From positions 1 through 39,308 of IMG/VR virus record IMGVR_UViG_3300049846_002207: a DNA stretch of 39,308 nucleotides. The stretch is one strand, 5' to 3'. A model generated the notes under the pieces. That model saw only the letters and a program-made list of their open reading frames with translations. It had not been told where the DNA came from and ran no database searches. Source of the DNA: a virus. The position numbers and the translations under genes were made by a program. Numbering within the stretch: position 1 is the stretch's first letter; each line of letters opens with the position of its first letter. Below, one piece after another: positions 3,710 through 39,308 of the stretch.

Positions 3710-3991
3710 ATGCTTAATTTTTCTAGGAAAGTTAGCCATTTCAGCCACGTATTTTTGGATAAGGATCTATCCTCTGACATATGGGTTACGGGCGACATTG
3801 AGGAGTCAAACGGCTCGATTAATATCGAAATTGATTCAGTTTTCGCTAGAATTTCAAAGGATAGTCCGTGGCTAAATTTAACCTCGACAATAATAGAGAA
3901 CGAGAATTATTGTGATAAGCTGTATGATAAAATCACAGAATGGTATTCAAACGAGTGCTTAGGGATAGTGGATGATAAAACAAGATGTTAA
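3710..3991 (+). CDS. Hypothetical acidic protein
   Basis: A 93-residue acidic protein; ATG 3710 is three bases after the exonuclease stop, with only a weak GGGGG far upstream, so coupling is likely. Strand-rich segments (DIWVTGDIEESNGSINIEID) suggest a small beta fold. No membrane segment or known motif is seen. The 3' end overlaps the LuxR-type gene by 20 bases. Unrecognised. Confidence 0.65.
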   Translation: MLNFSRKVSHFSHVFLDKDLSSDIWVTGDIEESNGSINIEIDSVFARISKDSPWLNLTSTIIENENYCDKLYDKITEWYSNECLGIVDDKTRC

Positions 3992-4442
3992 AAATTTCAT
4001 CAAGCAAGCTAGAAAAAACTCAATCAATGATACTGAGTTTACAAAAATTCTGGTCGAAAAATCAAAAAAGCTGACCGAAAAAGTTAAGTTACTAAACGCC
4101 ATGATTCGGGAGCTTAACGCTAGTATTCCGACATGGTCTCCAAAGAGATTGCGCGATGGGCATCTTGGAAATTGCGATCATGGCGGGGCAGTTAGAAGTT
4201 TGATGGAGGTTAAATACTTCAAGGAGACTTTCTCAGTGCGTGAGCTTGAAGTGATAATTTTCCTTATGCGAGGAATGTCGAATAGGGAAATCTCTGAGAG
4301 TTTATTCGTCGGAGAAAAGGCGATTAAGTATCACATGACAAATATTTTAATGAAATTAAGATGCAAGAGCAGAGTCGAGGCGATTTTCAAGATCGCAAAA
4401 CTGCTAGATGAGGACGAGAGAAATGGTGACGCTAGGGAATGA
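3972..4442 (+). CDS. LuxR/GerE-type transcription regulator
   Basis: A 156-residue protein. Residues 86-145 are a clear GerE helix-turn-helix: FSVRELEVIIFLMRGMSNRE, then EISESLFVGEKAIKYHMTN and a final helix with SRVEAIFKI. The N-terminal 50 residues form a Lys-rich coiled coil, and there is no receiver or acyl-homoserine-lactone domain. Such stand-alone LuxR heads bind DNA as dimers. It could regulate the phage's own divergent promoters or host genes; the target is unknown. The gene overlaps both neighbours, so it belongs to the exonuclease transcription unit. Confidence 0.85.
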   Translation: MIKQDVKNFIKQARKNSINDTEFTKILVEKSKKLTEKVKLLNAMIRELNASIPTWSPKRLRDGHLGNCDHGGAVRSLMEVKYFKETFSVRELEVIIFLMRGMSNREISESLFVGEKAIKYHMTNILMKLRCKSRVEAIFKIAKLLDEDERNGDARE

Positions 4443-29931: not shown

Positions 29932-31336
29932 TCTCTACAGGCTCCTCTTGATCGATCGGCTCATCCTCTGGCTCCTCGACTTCGATCGTGTTTTCTTCGT
30001 CGATCTCTTTGATAAACTCCTCAATTTCTTCTTCACTCATCTCTGGATATAATTTTTTGAGCGCATATTTTCTTGAGATAAGTCCAGCCTCAAGCTCTAG
30101 CTTAATGTCTGCAACAAGCTGACTTCTATCCATAAGCGGAGTCGGATCTCTAAACTCAACAGTTACCTTAGCTAATGGAGAAAACAATGCAGACTGCTCG
30201 ATCTGCATTTTGCTAACCCAGTATGGATGCATGTGATGCATAACCAGATCCCATAGCTCAGTCTCGATCGCTTTAAATATCTCGACTTGCTTCTCTTTCA
30301 TCGATGATGCATCGATATGGTCTAGTGCTTTACTAAAGCCAGAGATTGCGCTCTTTCCGTCTGTGTTCATCGCTTGACTTGAAACTAAGCCCTTCGACTC
30401 AAGCCACATATTAAGCTCTGCAGTGATTAGATTTAGCACTGCATCGATCTCGACTTGTGGCTTGATCACTCCGACTTCTGGTCTAGCTGTCGGATTATTC
30501 GGATCAGACTTAAAGCTCCAAAAAGCATTCGGATTCATCTCGAGATTTTTCTCATCGAGATCCACGCCGTACATCACACTAAAAGCCTGAAACATTACTG
30601 CATAGTTTAGATCGCTAAGCAGAATCGGAATGATCTTAGTCATCTTAAGCGTATCCTCGTCTGCTAATGGCATAATCAAGTTTTCAGATAAATTGCCATA
30701 TACAAACGGGAGTCTGCCGAACATATTCACGCCGTCGCCATTATCGAACGCAAGCATTCTGTCGATCAGCACTGTCTTATCCTCGTCGATAATAACCCAT
30801 TCATCATTCGAGTAGATGCTGAAAATCTGCTTATTATCTTTTGTCTTTCCATCAAGGATAACGATATGTGTTGGCTTTGTTGGATTAACAGGATCAAGAG
30901 ATATTGCAACGAATCTATCCGACGGGATGAATCTCAATGCGGGCTTCATGTTGTACACGTAAGGCTGGATTAATGTGTTCTTGTAGAGATTCAGCGCCTC
31001 GTTAGATTGATTCATTCTAAAGTTCGCACGCATCTCGTGCTCATACCAAGACAGAAGCTCCTCGTCTTGCTCAGTGCCATCAACTACTTCTCGCACTACT
31101 TGCGAGCCATATATTGTCGACTGCTTATCAACTATCTTTCTTAAAATATTTATCGGCACAATTCTATTTTTGGCGACAGCATACGACTTCGGAGACAGCT
31201 GCTCCTTTAGATCATTCTGGACATAAGTCAGTAGGTCGCCCTCGAAAATATTGAATAGCTTTTTGTTGTGCTCTAATAGTTGTGCGTGTTTCTTAGTGGC
31301 TTCAAGTAGGACGGGAATCTGCTCTTTAAGACTCAT
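29915..31336 (-). CDS. Portal protein
   Basis: A 473-residue protein directly after the large terminase, overlapping it by four bases. It has a beta-rich wing (VPINILRKIVDKQSTIYG; LRFIPSDRFVAISLDPVNP), a helical stem region near FSKALDHIDASSMKEKQVEI, and an acidic C-terminal tail (EEPEDEPIDQEEP). This is the plan of SPP1-type/HK97-type portals, the dodecameric DNA entry ring. Length is normal. Confidence 0.9.
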   Translation of the reverse strand: MSLKEQIPVLLEATKKHAQLLEHNKKLFNIFEGDLLTYVQNDLKEQLSPKSYAVAKNRIVPINILRKIVDKQSTIYGSQVVREVVDGTEQDEELLSWYEHEMRANFRMNQSNEALNLYKNTLIQPYVYNMKPALRFIPSDRFVAISLDPVNPTKPTHIVILDGKTKDNKQIFSIYSNDEWVIIDEDKTVLIDRMLAFDNGDGVNMFGRLPFVYGNLSENLIMPLADEDTLKMTKIIPILLSDLNYAVMFQAFSVMYGVDLDEKNLEMNPNAFWSFKSDPNNPTARPEVGVIKPQVEIDAVLNLITAELNMWLESKGLVSSQAMNTDGKSAISGFSKALDHIDASSMKEKQVEIFKAIETELWDLVMHHMHPYWVSKMQIEQSALFSPLAKVTVEFRDPTPLMDRSQLVADIKLELEAGLISRKYALKKLYPEMSEEEIEEFIKEIDEENTIEVEEPEDEPIDQEEPVENGESN

Positions 31337-32616
31337 AGTTGAATTGTCCTTTGTTCTTTGATAGGCAAAAACGGATCAAGCTTCCATAAACCATAGCCTA
31401 ACGCATCGCTAATATGCGTCAACATTTTATTTTCACCCTTTTGGTCTGGCTTGTTGTCTTTCCATACCACTTTCTGCAGATCATTAATGAGCTTTTTGCA
31501 TTTCGGATCGATCATAACTCGACCCTCCATAAGTATTCGGTTTACGTTATTGACCCTATCCATAACAAATGGATTTCTAGAACTTTCAACATAGAATCCA
31601 TTGTTTTTTAATATTTCAAAATCACTTATGCCGGATGTTTTTCTATTCGCACCAGTGGAGTCAGGTATTACTCGAGCACCACCGAAACCCTTTTTCTTTA
31701 AAGTGTCGCACATTTTATAAGTATCGGAGTTTTCCAAATACACTTCATCGATAAACATAAACTTTCTATCAACATACTGAAACACAACTGCAGTCATCGG
31801 GTTCACGTTAAAGTCCATCCCGACAAATATTGTCCCCGGCGTCAAAAGTGTTGGCTTAACGTGATCATCATATTTAAATCCATAGTAAACCTGGCCCTCT
31901 GATTCATCAGTGAATGTGCCCTCAAGAAATCGCTTTCGATCTTTCTCGGGTAACTTCTCTAATATCTTTAGATATTCATCGTCTAAGTTAGCGATGTTGT
32001 CGATCGGATTCATTAGCAGATGATCATAATCTTTCGGGTCAACTTTTGTTTCTTCAATCGGGTCAATGCCTTTGATGAATAGCCAATAACTCCAGTGCGA
32101 TTTTGTCGGAGGGTTTTCATCGTAAAATAGTTTTTTCTTAAGCGAATTCTTTTCAGCTAATCTCGTCTTAACCAAAGGGATGCTCGAATATGGAATCTGT
32201 GAACACTCGTTGAAATATATCGTCGAGTATTCTGTCCCTAAGATTTTCTCGATGCGTTCTTTATCATCAAGGCCTGCTACCCATATCTCAGATCCGTTCG
32301 GCAGAGTGTAGTAATAATCGGTTTTGTTTGGCTTCGCTCTTAGCTGAGGAAATGCAAGTGACAGGACCTTTGGGAGCGTATCAAGCCAAATGGATCGCTT
32401 AGCATGGTTAAAATTCAAACGCACTATTAGATGCTTCGATTTCGTTTTGCACGCTCTGATTATGATCTGTCTAACAATGATCGCTGTCTTGCCAGATCGA
32501 CTTCCGCCAAAGAGCATGATCTCCTTAGCGTCGCCTGACATTTTTCTGACGGCTTCTTTTTGCTTTTCGGTCTTGATGAATTTTAGCTCATCGACCTCAT
32601 GCTTTTTCGTCGTCAC
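31333..32616 (-). CDS. Terminase large subunit
   Basis: A 427-residue packaging motor. Walker A GGSRSGKT is at residues 37-44, Walker B with catalytic Glu137 in STIYFNECSQ. The nuclease domain shows FVGMDFNVNP near 267, VIPDSTG near 320 and HISDALGYG near 403, the acidic cluster of RNase-H-like terminase nucleases. The family is the PBSX/Terminase_3-6 type. It starts at GTG 32616, 20 bases inside the small subunit gene, without a clear ribosome site, so coupling is likely. Confidence 0.95.
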   Translation of the reverse strand: MTTKKHEVDELKFIKTEKQKEAVRKMSGDAKEIMLFGGSRSGKTAIIVRQIIIRACKTKSKHLIVRLNFNHAKRSIWLDTLPKVLSLAFPQLRAKPNKTDYYYTLPNGSEIWVAGLDDKERIEKILGTEYSTIYFNECSQIPYSSIPLVKTRLAEKNSLKKKLFYDENPPTKSHWSYWLFIKGIDPIEETKVDPKDYDHLLMNPIDNIANLDDEYLKILEKLPEKDRKRFLEGTFTDESEGQVYYGFKYDDHVKPTLLTPGTIFVGMDFNVNPMTAVVFQYVDRKFMFIDEVYLENSDTYKMCDTLKKKGFGGARVIPDSTGANRKTSGISDFEILKNNGFYVESSRNPFVMDRVNNVNRILMEGRVMIDPKCKKLINDLQKVVWKDNKPDQKGENKMLTHISDALGYGLWKLDPFLPIKEQRTIQL

Positions 32617-34532: not shown

Positions 34533-34769
34533 TCATCTTTCTCTTATGCGCTGCAATATAATATCTGGATGTTCGTCTGGCTTGTGGCCTCTTGCGTGCC
34601 ATAGCTCCTGTAAGGCCACGTACTGGTATTCTCCGGCGAGAAGCCATCTAACATAGTCATCCGGCACTTCGTCGATTGTACGGCCTTTGTGGGCGCCAAA
34701 AGTGATCTCCCAAGGGCCCATTACGCAGGCTGGGCATTGGCTTGGCTTAACTTCGTTGTCTTGCTTCAC
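34533..34769 (-). CDS. DUF3820-type small protein
   Basis: A 78-residue protein starting at GTG 34769, with GGA seven bases ahead and 23 bases inside the upstream gene. The core ITFGAHKGRTIDEVPDDYVR followed by WLLAGEY matches the DUF3820 (putative quorum-sensing-regulated virulence factor) pattern, also found as a C-terminal part of some exonucleases. The N-terminus has a CPAC pair that may bind zinc. Function in phages is unknown. Confidence 0.78.
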   Translation of the reverse strand: MKQDNEVKPSQCPACVMGPWEITFGAHKGRTIDEVPDDYVRWLLAGEYQYVALQELWHARGHKPDEHPDIILQRIRER

Positions 34770-35241
34770 AGAAAAATCCAGAATCAGGCTTTATCATGTA
34801 CAATGGGGAATCTTTATCCGCCCCTGCGCGGTGTAGATAAATTCCCCTGCGAAGCGAAATATAGGCATTTAACCTGTCTTGTGGGTTTTTAACAACCTTG
34901 TACTCACTACAAAGAAGTGCAGCGTATATTAGGGCGCCATTGGAAATATATTCGCCTACAGCATCCTCGACGATATGCTTAAAGCCATAAGAAAAATAAA
35001 CTCTATTTTTTGGAAGTAATGGATGGATATTCTTTAAAAACCTAATAGCTTTGTCGACTTCTCTAAAGACAAATTTTCTTTTTTCATCGTCCGTGCGCCT
35101 ATGCCACCACATGAGCGGCTCAAGTCCCGCGTCCCAGGCAACAAACTTAAATGCACCCACATCAACGCTCGTCGCTTCGACTAATGGAAACCCGTCCAAT
35201 TGCTCATCCTGCTTGAGATAAACTTCAAAATTTCTCGCCAT
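34747..35241 (-). CDS. Hypothetical protein near replication module
   Basis: A 164-residue protein with GGAGG seven bases ahead of ATG. The segment VYFSYGFKHIVEDAVGEYIS followed by NGALIYAALL is a helical motif I have seen as a type in phage early proteins of unknown function (SYGxKH...GEYxSNG), but I cannot name a family. It lies between the iteron region and the DUF3820 gene. No enzymatic residues are evident apart from the His-Glu pair. Confidence 0.65.
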   Translation of the reverse strand: MARNFEVYLKQDEQLDGFPLVEATSVDVGAFKFVAWDAGLEPLMWWHRRTDDEKRKFVFREVDKAIRFLKNIHPLLPKNRVYFSYGFKHIVEDAVGEYISNGALIYAALLCSEYKVVKNPQDRLNAYISLRRGIYLHRAGADKDSPLYMIKPDSGFFCEARQRS

Positions 35242-35537
35242 ACTTTTGCCTCCGCTGATGGGGAGGTGTAAATTGAACTAAAATTGAAGTCAATTATTTG
35301 TCGCATCGCAATGGTCGTTTTTAAGGTCGTTTTCGGGGTCGTTTTCGGAAAAAAACCCCATTCACTATACAAAAATAAAATGCATTTTCATTTTCCGATT
35401 TTTTTCTAAATTTTTACCTACCTCTATTTCAATATTTTTACGACTTTACGACCTTTTTAGTATTTATATTAATAATATTATATACTTAAGTAGGTCGTTT
35501 TTTGGTCGTTTTTTGGTCGTAAAGTCGTCTTTTTTTG
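35242..35537. other. Candidate replication origin with iterons
   Basis: This 296-bp gap lies next to the primase-helicase gene. Cluster 1 is GGTCGTTTT at 35313, 35325 and 35337, exactly 12 bp apart. Cluster 2 is GGTCGT at 35493, 35504 and 35515, 11 bp apart. ACGACTTTACGACC (35440-35453) is the exact reverse complement of GGTCGTAAAGTCGT (35515-35528), enclosing 61 bp that include a stretch of nearly pure A/T (35456-35490). Tandem sites, a palindrome and an easily melted core are the marks of an iteron origin. A small ORF through cluster 1 (35181-35372) is a repeat artefact. Confidence 0.65.
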
Positions 35538-38042
35538 TCATTCTTTGCAAATATAGGTAACAAATCCGCTGAAAGTGACTCCGCCCTTTCCTTTTGAATT
35601 CTTCTCAAGTTTCGACTTTACCTCAAGTTCCCTAAAAAACTGCTGCTTTGATAGGCATCCACGGTTTGCCATTTTACACCAGTGCGCGAAGTCGGAATAT
35701 ATATCTTTGCCTAAAGTTGTAGCATTTTGACTGCTCTTTTGCTCGATTATAAATTTAGAATCCCATTCTCCAGTCCTAATCTCTTCTAAATAAAGAGTGA
35801 CACTGTCAGTCAAGCTTTGCCATTCTTTAACAAAAGTTTTCGATGATTCTGTCTCTATATACTTAAACTCCGCTGAGATTAAATCAGCGAGCCCAATTTT
35901 TGCGAAATCCAATACGCTACCAGAGTCACGCATCCATATCTGATCGGCGAACTCAATAAAGCTAGCAGCTGATGCGTTTTCGCTATCAAAGGATTTTTTG
36001 AATTTAACTATCGAAACCCTGTTATTTAATGCGCCCGAATTTCCCTCGTATGTGTTCGGCATGATGTTGCAACAATAGATATGCAGAAAGGGGAGTGTAG
36101 CTCTAACTTTCTTAAGTCCTTTTCTATCAATATCAACGGGAGATTTGTCGCGAACCCCCTTCAATGTGTTTACGTCAAGCTCACATCCCTTTGGAAGCTC
36201 TAGAACTATATTTGCAATTTTCCCGATAGCGTTTTCCCAATTGAATCTGTCGCCTCCATTGCCTTGAATTATTGGCAACACGCTTGAGACGTTTTGCTCG
36301 CCAAGTAGTTTTTTAATTAGCAGGGCGAAAGTTGACTTGCCGGAGTTTGAAGCGCCCTCAATGAAAAAAATCCATGGGACGAACGGCACAAGCGCTGCTC
36401 CCATCATTTGCTTAAGTATGCGAAAGTTTTCTTGTCCGATGTCGTTTATTCTGCCCTTAAGATATTCGTTAAACATCCCGTTTCTTGGCAGGCCATCAGT
36501 CTTTAAAAATGGAAATGGGGCGCAGTAGGCTAGATAATCATTTTTGTCGTGCTCTTTGTATTTTAAATCGACCTTTCCTTGCTCATTCACTTCGACTTCT
36601 ATGGTCGTGTCGCTGAAATTAAATTTGTTAGGACTTGAAGTAAAAAAGCAGTTATTTTCAGGGGCTATTGGGATTTTTGCTATCACTTGATTTGATAGGT
36701 TCTTTACCTTAGTTATGTTCGCTTTGTTTTTGTACGCATGAATCGACATCTTATCTATGAGATCACGAAACTGCTCTTTGCCAATTCTTTCCCAGTGAGT
36801 GTCTGCCCATCTGAAAAATTCATCACCTGCTTTGCAGATTTCTGGCATTTCTTGAAGTATTTTGTCAGCTATTTCGCCCTCTGATAATCCAATCATTGGA
36901 TTTTCGCGAGCTTGATTTTCAACTTTTTGCTTCTCTGTTAAGTCGACAGGTTCATGTCTTTTGCCGGGATTTAGATGCGAATAGACTTTGCATTTTCCAG
37001 AGCAGTAGGCTTTTTTGATTGGATCATAGCATGAGAATTTGTAGCTATTTTTTTTGGCATATGCATCGATAACCATTTTCATAGTTTCTTCGACTCTCAT
37101 TATGTCTCTTTCGTACATCCTATTTGCCCATTTTTTCATTCTGTGGACAGCCAGGCTGACTGCTAGCCCTGTCTTTTGCATATCGCAAATCATGCGAAAT
37201 GCTATATCGTGCCGGTTGAATTGAGGTAGATGGCAATCCATCATTTTTTCGATGCATTTTTTTCCGTCGAAAGTTTCATACGCAAGAGATTCATCCTCAT
37301 CAAGCATAAGTCCGTTTGGGACTTCGACGAGTTGACTTGGTTTGAATTGTTTTTCAGCTCTTGTTTTTATTTCTTCTGTTTCTTTGTCGTCGATACATAG
37401 CCAGTCAATTTTCTGCTCTGGAGAAATTGGGTGCTTGTATGAAAGATTCTGTTGTACTTTTGCGATTTCTCTAATTTGCTCAATGGTTAAATTTTCCCAG
37501 CCAAAACCACAGTCTGTTAATCTTGTTTTGTATAGTTTTGTTTTTAAATTTAATGACCTATAAGCTCGAAATTTTCTTGATGGGTCCCATATCGCGAGGT
37601 CGATTGTTTTAAATTCTTTTTGAAGTTTTGAAAGAATCTCTTTGACGTGCAGGCTGACCTCTCTATGTCCGCCCGATTTTATCCCAAATGCATCCATATG
37701 TACGGCAACATGAAAGCCCTTGTTGCCCGAAAAATAGATTTGGAAATCGCATTTACTTTCATCAAGTTTTTGGACAAAAAGCTTAACATCCTCCCACGCC
37801 TCCGCTCCCGGCGTTTCGCTTTCTTTGTCGTCAAAATCTAGATGGATAGTTTCAAATACTGGACATATTTCGCCCGAGTACTCCTTAAATTCTTCTCTGG
37901 CTTCTAAATCATAAAAACAATGATAAGCCTCAGAATCACTTGAGTGTTTTGCTATTAGCTCCTCAAGTTGATCCGCCTTTACAATTGCGCTGCCGGATAG
38001 CTTTGACCTAGTTGATTTTACGAAATAGTTTGAATCTATCAT
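35538..38042 (-). CDS. Primase (AEP/PrimPol-type) fused to SF3 helicase
   Basis: An 834-residue protein from ATG 38042, preceded by AGAGGG; a longer frame to 38138 runs into a hairpin. N-terminal AEP motifs: HLDFDD (Asp69, Asp71), SGNKGFH at 105-111, IWDP with Asp153. A three-Cys stretch near 340-355 (CYDPIKKAYCSGKC) may bind zinc. The C-terminal D5/SF3 helicase has Walker A EGASNSGKST near 562, Walker B IVLELP near 612 and sensor YCCNIMPN near 657. Such proteins prime and unwind DNA in phages such as NrS-1 and in plasmids. No separate polymerase gene is seen. Confidence 0.93.
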   Translation of the reverse strand: MIDSNYFVKSTRSKLSGSAIVKADQLEELIAKHSSDSEAYHCFYDLEAREEFKEYSGEICPVFETIHLDFDDKESETPGAEAWEDVKLFVQKLDESKCDFQIYFSGNKGFHVAVHMDAFGIKSGGHREVSLHVKEILSKLQKEFKTIDLAIWDPSRKFRAYRSLNLKTKLYKTRLTDCGFGWENLTIEQIREIAKVQQNLSYKHPISPEQKIDWLCIDDKETEEIKTRAEKQFKPSQLVEVPNGLMLDEDESLAYETFDGKKCIEKMMDCHLPQFNRHDIAFRMICDMQKTGLAVSLAVHRMKKWANRMYERDIMRVEETMKMVIDAYAKKNSYKFSCYDPIKKAYCSGKCKVYSHLNPGKRHEPVDLTEKQKVENQARENPMIGLSEGEIADKILQEMPEICKAGDEFFRWADTHWERIGKEQFRDLIDKMSIHAYKNKANITKVKNLSNQVIAKIPIAPENNCFFTSSPNKFNFSDTTIEVEVNEQGKVDLKYKEHDKNDYLAYCAPFPFLKTDGLPRNGMFNEYLKGRINDIGQENFRILKQMMGAALVPFVPWIFFIEGASNSGKSTFALLIKKLLGEQNVSSVLPIIQGNGGDRFNWENAIGKIANIVLELPKGCELDVNTLKGVRDKSPVDIDRKGLKKVRATLPFLHIYCCNIMPNTYEGNSGALNNRVSIVKFKKSFDSENASAASFIEFADQIWMRDSGSVLDFAKIGLADLISAEFKYIETESSKTFVKEWQSLTDSVTLYLEEIRTGEWDSKFIIEQKSSQNATTLGKDIYSDFAHWCKMANRGCLSKQQFFRELEVKSKLEKNSKGKGGVTFSGFVTYICKE

Positions 38043-38371
38043 TTTAAACCCTCTTGCATTTTTTTCGTTTGACATAAAGAAATAGACGACATAACCTGCA
38101 CCCCTCTTGCATTTGGTTCTATGTTTCAGTTTGCGCAAAAGGCTTCGAGTTCTCCTCGGGGCCTTTTGTCTTTTTGGAGCCTAAAACCGTACTCGTAAAA
38201 TCATTGCCGTTTCAACAAAATAAACCCTAGTACTCACGCCCGGCGGCGCACCACTATATATAGTTAGCCCATATTTTACGCATTGCCACATGCTGATTTT
38301 TATCTTGCACTTTGGTCGAGGTCCTAGTTAACGTGTGTTCACGGAAAAACATAAAACAAAGGAGACATTCG
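38043..38371. promoter_or_regulatory. Divergent control region between the two arms
   Basis: A 329-bp stretch with no convincing gene, placed between the primase start and the recombinase start, so promoters for both arms must lie here or nearby. It holds a hairpin (38137-38167), a GC-rich spot (CGCCCGGCGGCG near 38239) and AT-rich patches (CTATATATAG near 38253; CATATTTTACG). TTGCAC at 38305 could be a -35 for the (+) arm but its -10 is poor. I cannot place promoters with confidence. Confidence 0.5.
38137..38175 (+). terminator. Hairpin with T tracts, terminator-like
   Basis: AAAAGGC (38137-38143) pairs with GCCTTTT (38161-38167), and inside CGAG (38146-38149) pairs with CTCG (38155-38158). 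On (+) it is followed by GTCTTTTT, the form of a Rho-independent terminator. No (+) gene ends here, so it may stop antisense transcripts from entering the recombinase unit, or act as a structured leader in the primase transcript. Confidence 0.5.
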
Positions 38372-39046
38372 ATGGCACTGCCAACAATGAAAACGTCAAT
38401 TCAGACGGATTTCAGCAAGTACAAATTTCTGATCTATGGACAGCCGAAGGTGGGAAAATCCACTTTCGCTAGCAAATTTAACAATGCTCTATTTATAGCA
38501 ACAGAGCCGGGGCATAATTTCCTAGAGATTTTTAAGATCGATATTCGCACATGGGCTGACTTCAAAGAGACAGCGAGAGAATTAACGACGACGAAGCATG
38601 ATTACAAGATGCTCGTGATCGATACGGTCGACAATCTCTATAAGATGTGTGAGCAATTCGTTTTGGAGCAGAATAAAGTGCAGCACGCATCTGATCTGCC
38701 ATACGGAAAGGGTTTCAATTTAATTAAAGATGAGTTTACAAAAGTCATGAATTATCTCGGAAACTCTGGCTTCGGATTCGTTTTTATCTCTCATGCGAAA
38801 GAGAAAGAGCTTAAGACGAAAACTTCAAGTTGGACAATGATGTCGACCTCTCTTGGAAATCAAGCAGAGTCATTCGTGTGCGGGTTATGTGATTTCATTT
38901 TCTATTGCTATGTAAACGACAAAAACGAGCGATTGATGAAAACCAAGGCTGAGAAATACGTGAACGCTGGGAGCCGTGGTTTTGATTTACCGTCGCCGAT
39001 GCCAATGGATTTTAATTTATTAACAACTAAATTTAAAGGGGGATAA
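38372..39046 (+). CDS. Sak4-like RecA-fold recombination ATPase
   Basis: A 224-residue protein; ATG 38372 has GGAG seven bases ahead, so the longer frame to 38312 is rejected. Walker A GQPKVGKST at 23-31, Walker B LVIDT with Asp84, and a FVFISHAKEKELK segment near 140 match Sak4, a short Rad51/RecA-like phage ATPase that works with an SSB-like partner in strand annealing or exchange. The partner is probably the DUF669 protein directly downstream. First gene of the (+) arm. Confidence 0.88.
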   Translation: MALPTMKTSIQTDFSKYKFLIYGQPKVGKSTFASKFNNALFIATEPGHNFLEIFKIDIRTWADFKETARELTTTKHDYKMLVIDTVDNLYKMCEQFVLEQNKVQHASDLPYGKGFNLIKDEFTKVMNYLGNSGFGFVFISHAKEKELKTKTSSWTMMSTSLGNQAESFVCGLCDFIFYCYVNDKNERLMKTKAEKYVNAGSRGFDLPSPMPMDFNLLTTKFKGG

Positions 39047-39047
39047 A

Positions 39048-39308
39048 ATGAGCAGTATTTTGGATCTATTCGATATGCCAGACACTCAGAGCGAGAAAAA
39101 AGAGTTTGAGAAACTACCAGAGGGCACATATCAGGTTGAAATTGAGGAAGCAAAACTCGACGAGGCTAATCAGTATGGCCCGCGCGTGGCTTATACTCTG
39201 AAAATAACAGAGGAAGGCAAGTATCGAAATCGCAAGCTGTGGGTTAATCGCAAGCTTGATGCGAAAACGATTTGGAAGGTTAAGAGTGATTTTGAGGCTC
39301 TTGGTTGC
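39048..39308 (+). CDS. DUF669-family protein, 5' part (continues at base 1)
   Basis: This is the 5' part of a gene cut by the contig ends. It starts at ATG 39048 directly after the Sak4-like ATPase stop (39046), with a GGGGG Shine-Dalgarno just upstream. Joined through the circular junction at 39177/1 it ends at 287 and encodes 138 residues. The acidic N-terminus and the segment YQVEIEEAKLDE followed by a beta-rich body resemble phage DUF669 proteins. These commonly sit beside single-strand annealing or Rad51-like recombinases and are thought to be single-stranded-DNA binding. The family call is by pattern and gene order; ssDNA binding is inferred. Confidence 0.75.
   Translation, partial: MSSILDLFDMPDTQSEKKEFEKLPEGTYQVEIEEAKLDEANQYGPRVAYTLKITEEGKYRNRKLWVNRKLDAKTIWKVKSDFEALGC
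39178..39308. repeat. Right copy of the contig-end overlap
   Basis: Duplicate of bases 1-131 with a single base difference. Removing one copy gives a closed unit of about 39,177 bp. The packaging mode (cos or headful) cannot be read from this. Confidence 0.9.

Follow-up and report, generated by a model that had tools for sequence, protein, structure and literature searches.

A candidate replication origin of clustered iterons directly downstream of a fused primase-helicase gene in an uncultured phage

The repeat region beside the gene for a fused primase-helicase in the virus record IMGVR_UViG_3300049846_002207, all 39,308 bases of which were analysed and are called the window here, is, judging from its sequence, very probably the replication origin of a phage. 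The fuller reading, of which we are confident without regarding it as settled, is that positions 35313-35528 form a cis-acting origin whose iterons are bound by the adjacent primase-helicase, rings of which would melt an AT-rich core and thereby allow priming. A candidate origin, perhaps bound by the primase-helicase or a partner, is what the original prediction had proposed for this region, and an origin bound by the primase-helicase is supported as the best reading, with relatives keeping repeats in the same layout; it gives a concrete candidate origin in an uncultured phage lineage.

The record carries a direct terminal overlap of 126 bp (6-131, repeated at 39183-39308) and only its first five bases fall outside it; most probably, therefore, the record is an entire phage genome of ~39.2 kb that was assembled as a circle. 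Since it has its own large terminase gene (31333-32616, recognized by family search) and its long open frames follow the usual portal-capsid-tail order, it represents a full phage and not a satellite of the PICI kind, i.e. one devoid of full packaging and virion genes of its own. The terminase has many relatives at 55-68% identity (L003-L058), nearly all of which come without the window primase, so that the replication module is mosaic with respect to the packaging genes. The early region also encodes a small protein with a LuxR/GerE-type DNA-binding domain (3972-4442, E 3.5e-16).

The repeat array, its AT-rich core and the adjacent gene

The whole origin candidate is contained in a noncoding gap of 296 bp (35242..35537, no strand assigned; 69% AT vs 58% for the genome) directly 3' of the primase-helicase gene, and the next gene runs in the same direction. 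Within the gap, GGTCGTTTT occurs at 35313, 35325 and 35337 with a 12-bp period and GGTCGT at 35493, 35504 and 35515 with an 11-bp period, and the 14-bp sequences ACGACTTTACGACC (35440-35453) and GGTCGTAAAGTCGT (35515-35528) are exact inverted copies of each other, 61 nt apart. These repeats and their coordinates, as first proposed, proved correct throughout, and they cluster far beyond what shuffled sequence produces. All five genome-wide copies of GGTCGTTTT lie within 35313-35512, with none on the other strand, and GGTCGT/ACGACC is found seven times in ~210 bp, whereas in 30 shuffled genomes no 6-mer formed a cluster of more than 6 copies, 4-5 being usual. Similarly, the best 9-mer cluster counts five copies in the window vs 2-3 in 15 shuffles, and a sliding scan singled out the gap region as the best iteron cluster of the genome.

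When two half-arms are counted as well, the array comprises nine sites in three clusters (four direct, two inverted and three direct), an arrangement that the original prediction had missed. Measured from the stop codon on the primase strand, the direct sites lie at 9, 17, 28 and 39, the inverted ones at 84 and 92, and the remaining direct ones at 195, 207 and 219; the repeats thus begin only 9 bp past the primase stop codon, i.e. directly 3' of the gene. The first set (35493..35528, minus strand) consists of one ACGACT and three ACGACC sites as read on the primase strand, with 8- and 11-bp spacing, 9-45 bp past the stop. It is followed by an AT-rich core (35454..35492, no strand; 36 of its 39 bp are A/T), a candidate melting site, and by the second set (35440..35453, plus strand), two opposite sites with GGTCGTAAAGTCGT on the primase strand that form an exact inverted repeat of part of the first. 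A second AT-rich stretch (35346..35439, no strand) separates this from the third set (35313..35345, minus strand), three AAAACGACC sites with a 12-bp period in the same orientation as the first set.

The AT-rich core that had been claimed for the region is real and coincides with the least stable duplex of the entire genome, which starts at 35453 in 40-bp windows; with windows of 30, 40, 60, 80 or 100 bp, the top-ranked unstable segment always falls in the gap. GC skew was uninformative as an origin marker, as it tracks gene orientation and the third-position skew shows no switch, and Rfam returned no match.

The adjacent gene (35538..38042, minus strand) encodes 834 amino acids that combine, by Pfam, PHROG and motif evidence, an AEP-type primase with D5_N and an SF3 helicase, the latter two being what is looked for in an initiator gene of this kind. 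Pfam matches include DUF5906 (1e-10) and D5_N (4e-5), plus DNA_primase_S at 0.001, below the cut-off, and PHROG DNA primases match down to 8e-26. The primase part contains the AEP motifs HLDFD (DxD at 69/71) and SGNKGFH (105-111), and the SF3 helicase part the Walker A motif GASNSGKST; alignment shows that both the AEP and Walker A motifs are kept in relatives. The C-terminal region is predicted, with low confidence, to be a winged helix: the model of the last 135 residues (pLDDT 66.6, itself of low confidence) places two helices and two strands in winged-helix order. It gave no significant fold match, and its top non-significant ones are mostly winged-helix proteins, including Orc/Cdc6, and phage primases. 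A Pox_D5 match is found at the C-terminus of two homologues (L087 and L046) and also of that of phage Javan633. A PDB sequence search returned nothing useful, and the full-length structure model (pLDDT 47) was set aside. The replication/recombination module further includes a divergent Sak4-like recombinase gene (38312..39046, plus strand; PHROG 124, 2.8e-46), and the gene next downstream of the gap (34747..35241, minus strand; 164 aa) belongs to no confident family.

A layout kept in relatives and a block exchanged between two of them

Searching IMG/VR by the primase, Sak4 or YqaJ alone yielded none or one close relative, no relative of the window primase was found in the genome contigs, and a first scan with a two-member alignment recovered only an already known contig. 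It was among the relatives of TerL, which are common and mostly without the window primase, that a contig (L087) with the same fused protein was encountered (45% identity over 830 residues), and a scan with the conserved helicase block added two more, L093 and L094. Short repeats, oriented both ways, occupy the same 3' place in all three relatives. The repeat words differ, being ACGAC in the window and TCCGA, TGCGA and ACGAG in the three relatives, with CGA as the common core, and the layout is common to all: a direct pair, an inverted pair ~46 bp on, and then direct copies ~160 bp on. With the final site of the first direct set as the zero point, the two inverted sites are found at 46 and 54 bp in the window, 47 and 54 in L087, 44 and 54 in L094, and 46 and 53 in L093, and the direct copies follow at 156/168/180, 166, 163 and 160 bp, respectively. 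Relatives sharing the primase and lacking nearby repeats, which had been named beforehand as evidence against an origin, were therefore not what these searches turned up, the cases of L087 and L093 being the weaker ones; these two have few repeats, which a simple cluster score does not single out. In 80-bp windows, the 3' region is the weakest duplex of its locus in L093 and L094, as well as in L046, L089 and Javan633, and is among the top five in L087. The strongest repeat of the L087 locus is a coding tandem repeat of CAACAGCTC units at the contig end (15310-15395), unrelated to the origin.

Is such a layout specific enough to be recognized when the word itself is left free? A strict scan accepted every 5-mer that was preceded by a direct neighbour at 10-12 bp and followed by inverted copies at 42-48 and 50-56 bp and by a direct copy at 150-182 bp, ranges that were chosen after the four members had been seen. 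The window, L087 and L094 each contain a single such place, always at the primase gene's 3' end, and there is none in the 20 kb that make up the rest of the L087 contig (L088); L093 has the relaxed form only, without the 10-12 bp neighbour. Order-2 shuffles amounting to 175 Mb contained 3 strict and 403 relaxed matches. Other loci, 3.19 Mb in total with both strands counted and some of the loci overlapping, contained a single strict match; situated at L076:4375, it lies 40 bp past the stop codon of a different, Toprim-carrying P-loop protein that is primase-helicase-like, which is to say at another repeat cluster directly 3' of a gene of this sort. Fixed spacing with a free word offers a way of finding such origins without knowing the word. 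The cluster that the scan found blind (L076:4335-4600) consists of GGAAC/GTTCC repeats that surround an AT run of 60 bp immediately 3' of the Toprim P-loop gene and may be regarded as a candidate origin of another initiator type.

The relaxed layout also occurs 3' of the helicase gene in L046 and in the Streptococcus phage Javan633 (distances of 45-47/53-55/161 bp in the latter), and the crr of P4, fetched later, conforms to the strict one. In Javan633 (L159:6204-6650), the primase is followed on its 3' side by eight ACGTAAC repeats, and the locus has its weakest duplex there as well. Further origin candidates are the TGTAACA-like repeats at L089:5862-6170 and the GGACAGG repeats at L046:2229-2415, each 3' of an SF3 helicase gene; both loci are related to the window by Sak4 (L046 also by TerL) and have other primase parts. 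A panel made up of 12 more records, of cultured or deposited phages and satellites that encode such helicases, was evenly divided: in R18.1, Javan76, Javan647, LP-101, Chancellor and Javan308, the best repeat cluster of the locus lies 3' of the gene, in five of these six together with the weakest duplex, and in the other six it does not. A universal layout is ruled out, none of the 12 records nor Sfi21 having it 3' of the gene, and three distant primase-helicase phages (Seuss, SANTOR1 and vB_BboS-125) have no such repeats there. Taken with the precedents discussed below, the panel therefore indicates that repeats 3' of such genes are of a known and widespread, not universal, kind, and the exact layout is a feature of the window protein family and a few others.

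A closer tie between helicase and repeats comes from L093 and L094, two phages that are nearly identical elsewhere. Their DNA is 80-99% identical from just upstream of the primase gene through about codon 375, falls to 30-60% over a stretch comprising the helicase, the C-terminus, the repeats and the small gene that follows, and then returns to 92-99%; in the proteins, the primase halves are 95.9%, the D5_N/SF3 parts 48% and the C-termini 35% identical. From this drop it follows that the helicase half and the repeats were replaced together and the primase was kept. The exchanged block corresponds to L093:4500-6470 and L094:4200-6260; a second divergent stretch is seen at L093:7370-8560. Such a joint change of a helicase and its presumed binding sites, next to a primase that stayed, amounts to a natural experiment; it links helicase and repeats better than proximity does and is the strongest sequence evidence suggesting that the repeats are read either by the helicase part or by the adjoining small gene. 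Because it lies inside the exchanged block, the small gene, whose positional counterpart in the window is 34747..35241, could encode a binding partner.

It is quite possible, if rather less likely than not, that helicase and origin are exchanged as one cassette with a fixed scaffold and a free word, the scaffold (a direct pair, 46 and 54 bp to an inverted pair and ~160 bp to direct copies, also seen in P4 crr, Javan633, L046 and L076) perhaps reflecting the footprint of a double ring used by several unrelated initiator families.

Proposed mechanism and alternative readings

How might such an origin fire? The adjacent primase-helicase would recognise the ACGAC(C/T) iterons in double-stranded form, most likely via its C-terminal winged-helix domain; the domain is probably the one involved, we infer, because SaPI Rep and SCCmec Cch2 use their C-terminal domain to recognise the origin that lies past their gene (PMC7581432). 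The opposed arrays around the 39-bp AT core would then allow two helicase rings to assemble face to face, open up the core and load themselves with no separate loader, upon which the fused primase could make primers on the exposed strands.

An element like P4 crr, i.e. one whose iterons are bound by the primase-helicase and needed in cis and where replication starts elsewhere, seems improbable to us, even though it has a real precedent: in P4, the crr iterons follow alpha on its 3' side and the annotated origin is a different site, ~4.5 kb off, that bears these repeats as well, and crr was picked out by the very same layout scan. The window genome, by contrast, holds no second iteron cluster (GGTCGTTTT being confined to this region), and its weakest duplex sits inside the iteron cluster. 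We give somewhat less credence still to an origin of the stem-loop type, known from the archaeal plasmid pRN1 and from phage BIP-1, in which the 14-bp inverted repeat with its 61-nt loop would be read as a hairpin. A comparably sized stem-loop, located 3' of the AEP-SF3 gene, is required by pRN1 (PMC4234260), and the window sequence does fold well as a single strand (z -5.3); yet the z-scores of the relatives (-0.4 in L087, +1.0 in L093 and -2.8 in L094) show that no long stem-loop is conserved across the four members, whereas the iteron layout is, and the third set of sites belongs to no stem.

The same gap lies in front of the next gene, for which a GGAGG ribosome site is present, and the small gene at that place was exchanged along with the repeats between L093 and L094. 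Both facts would suit an operator array through which a regulator, possibly the primase-helicase or the product of the next gene, controls transcription into the downstream genes. This is nevertheless the least likely of the readings, and very unlikely in absolute terms, because the clustered word is found at no other promoter or anywhere else in the genome and promoter-like matches stay at background level; moreover, an operator needs neither the weakest duplex nor paired inverted arrays at the fixed distance of 46/54 bp.

Comparison with known systems

The original prediction had taken NrS-1 PrimPol as its analogue, and here another comparison serves better. NrS-1 polymerase resembles the window protein in having an AEP domain fused to a helicase domain, but it recognises a single-stranded priming motif, TTTGGTTA (PMC8718748), four copies of which occur in the window genome and none near the repeat region, so that initiation of the NrS-1 type is not what the sequence points to. 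SaPI/PICI Rep, P4 alpha and SCCmec Cch2 are the better models, being helicases with an origin or cis region directly downstream of their gene.

The origins of PICIs and SaPIs lie 3' of rep (PMC6092414, PMC7581432), the order being pri-rep and then ori. The window differs in being a 39-kb genome with terminase, portal and capsid-type genes of its own and in having primase and helicase fused, with an AEP domain, and binding is here predicted. Cch2 shares a D5_N-type helicase and a C-terminal domain binding direct repeats downstream of its own gene, and it differs in its few 5-nt iterons and separate primase-polymerase (PMC7581432). pRN1 ORF904 likewise unites an AEP domain, an SF3 helicase and a winged helix and has an essential cis element 3' of its gene, which in contrast is a stem-loop and not an array of iterons (PMC4234260).

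Two further systems are comparable. P4 has a fused primase-helicase, alpha, with the cis-required iterons of crr just 3' of the gene, laid out as a direct pair with an inverted pair ~43 bp on and repeated 180 bp on; unlike in the window, a second, distant iteron cluster is annotated as the origin and crr as cis-required. The primase part of P4 also differs from that of the window. The Streptococcus phage Sfi21, a full phage, has an annotated noncoding origin of 302 bp directly 3' of a putative primase, Sak4 and SSB genes in the module, and AGTAAC repeats, its best repeat cluster and its weakest duplex at the same 3' place; it differs in that its origin has no match to the window layout scan and its primase functions are spread over two genes. 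On the best reading, the region in the window would work like the SaPI/PICI origins, P4 crr and the Sfi21 origin, and appears as a further case of an origin type for which phage satellites and some phages offer precedents.
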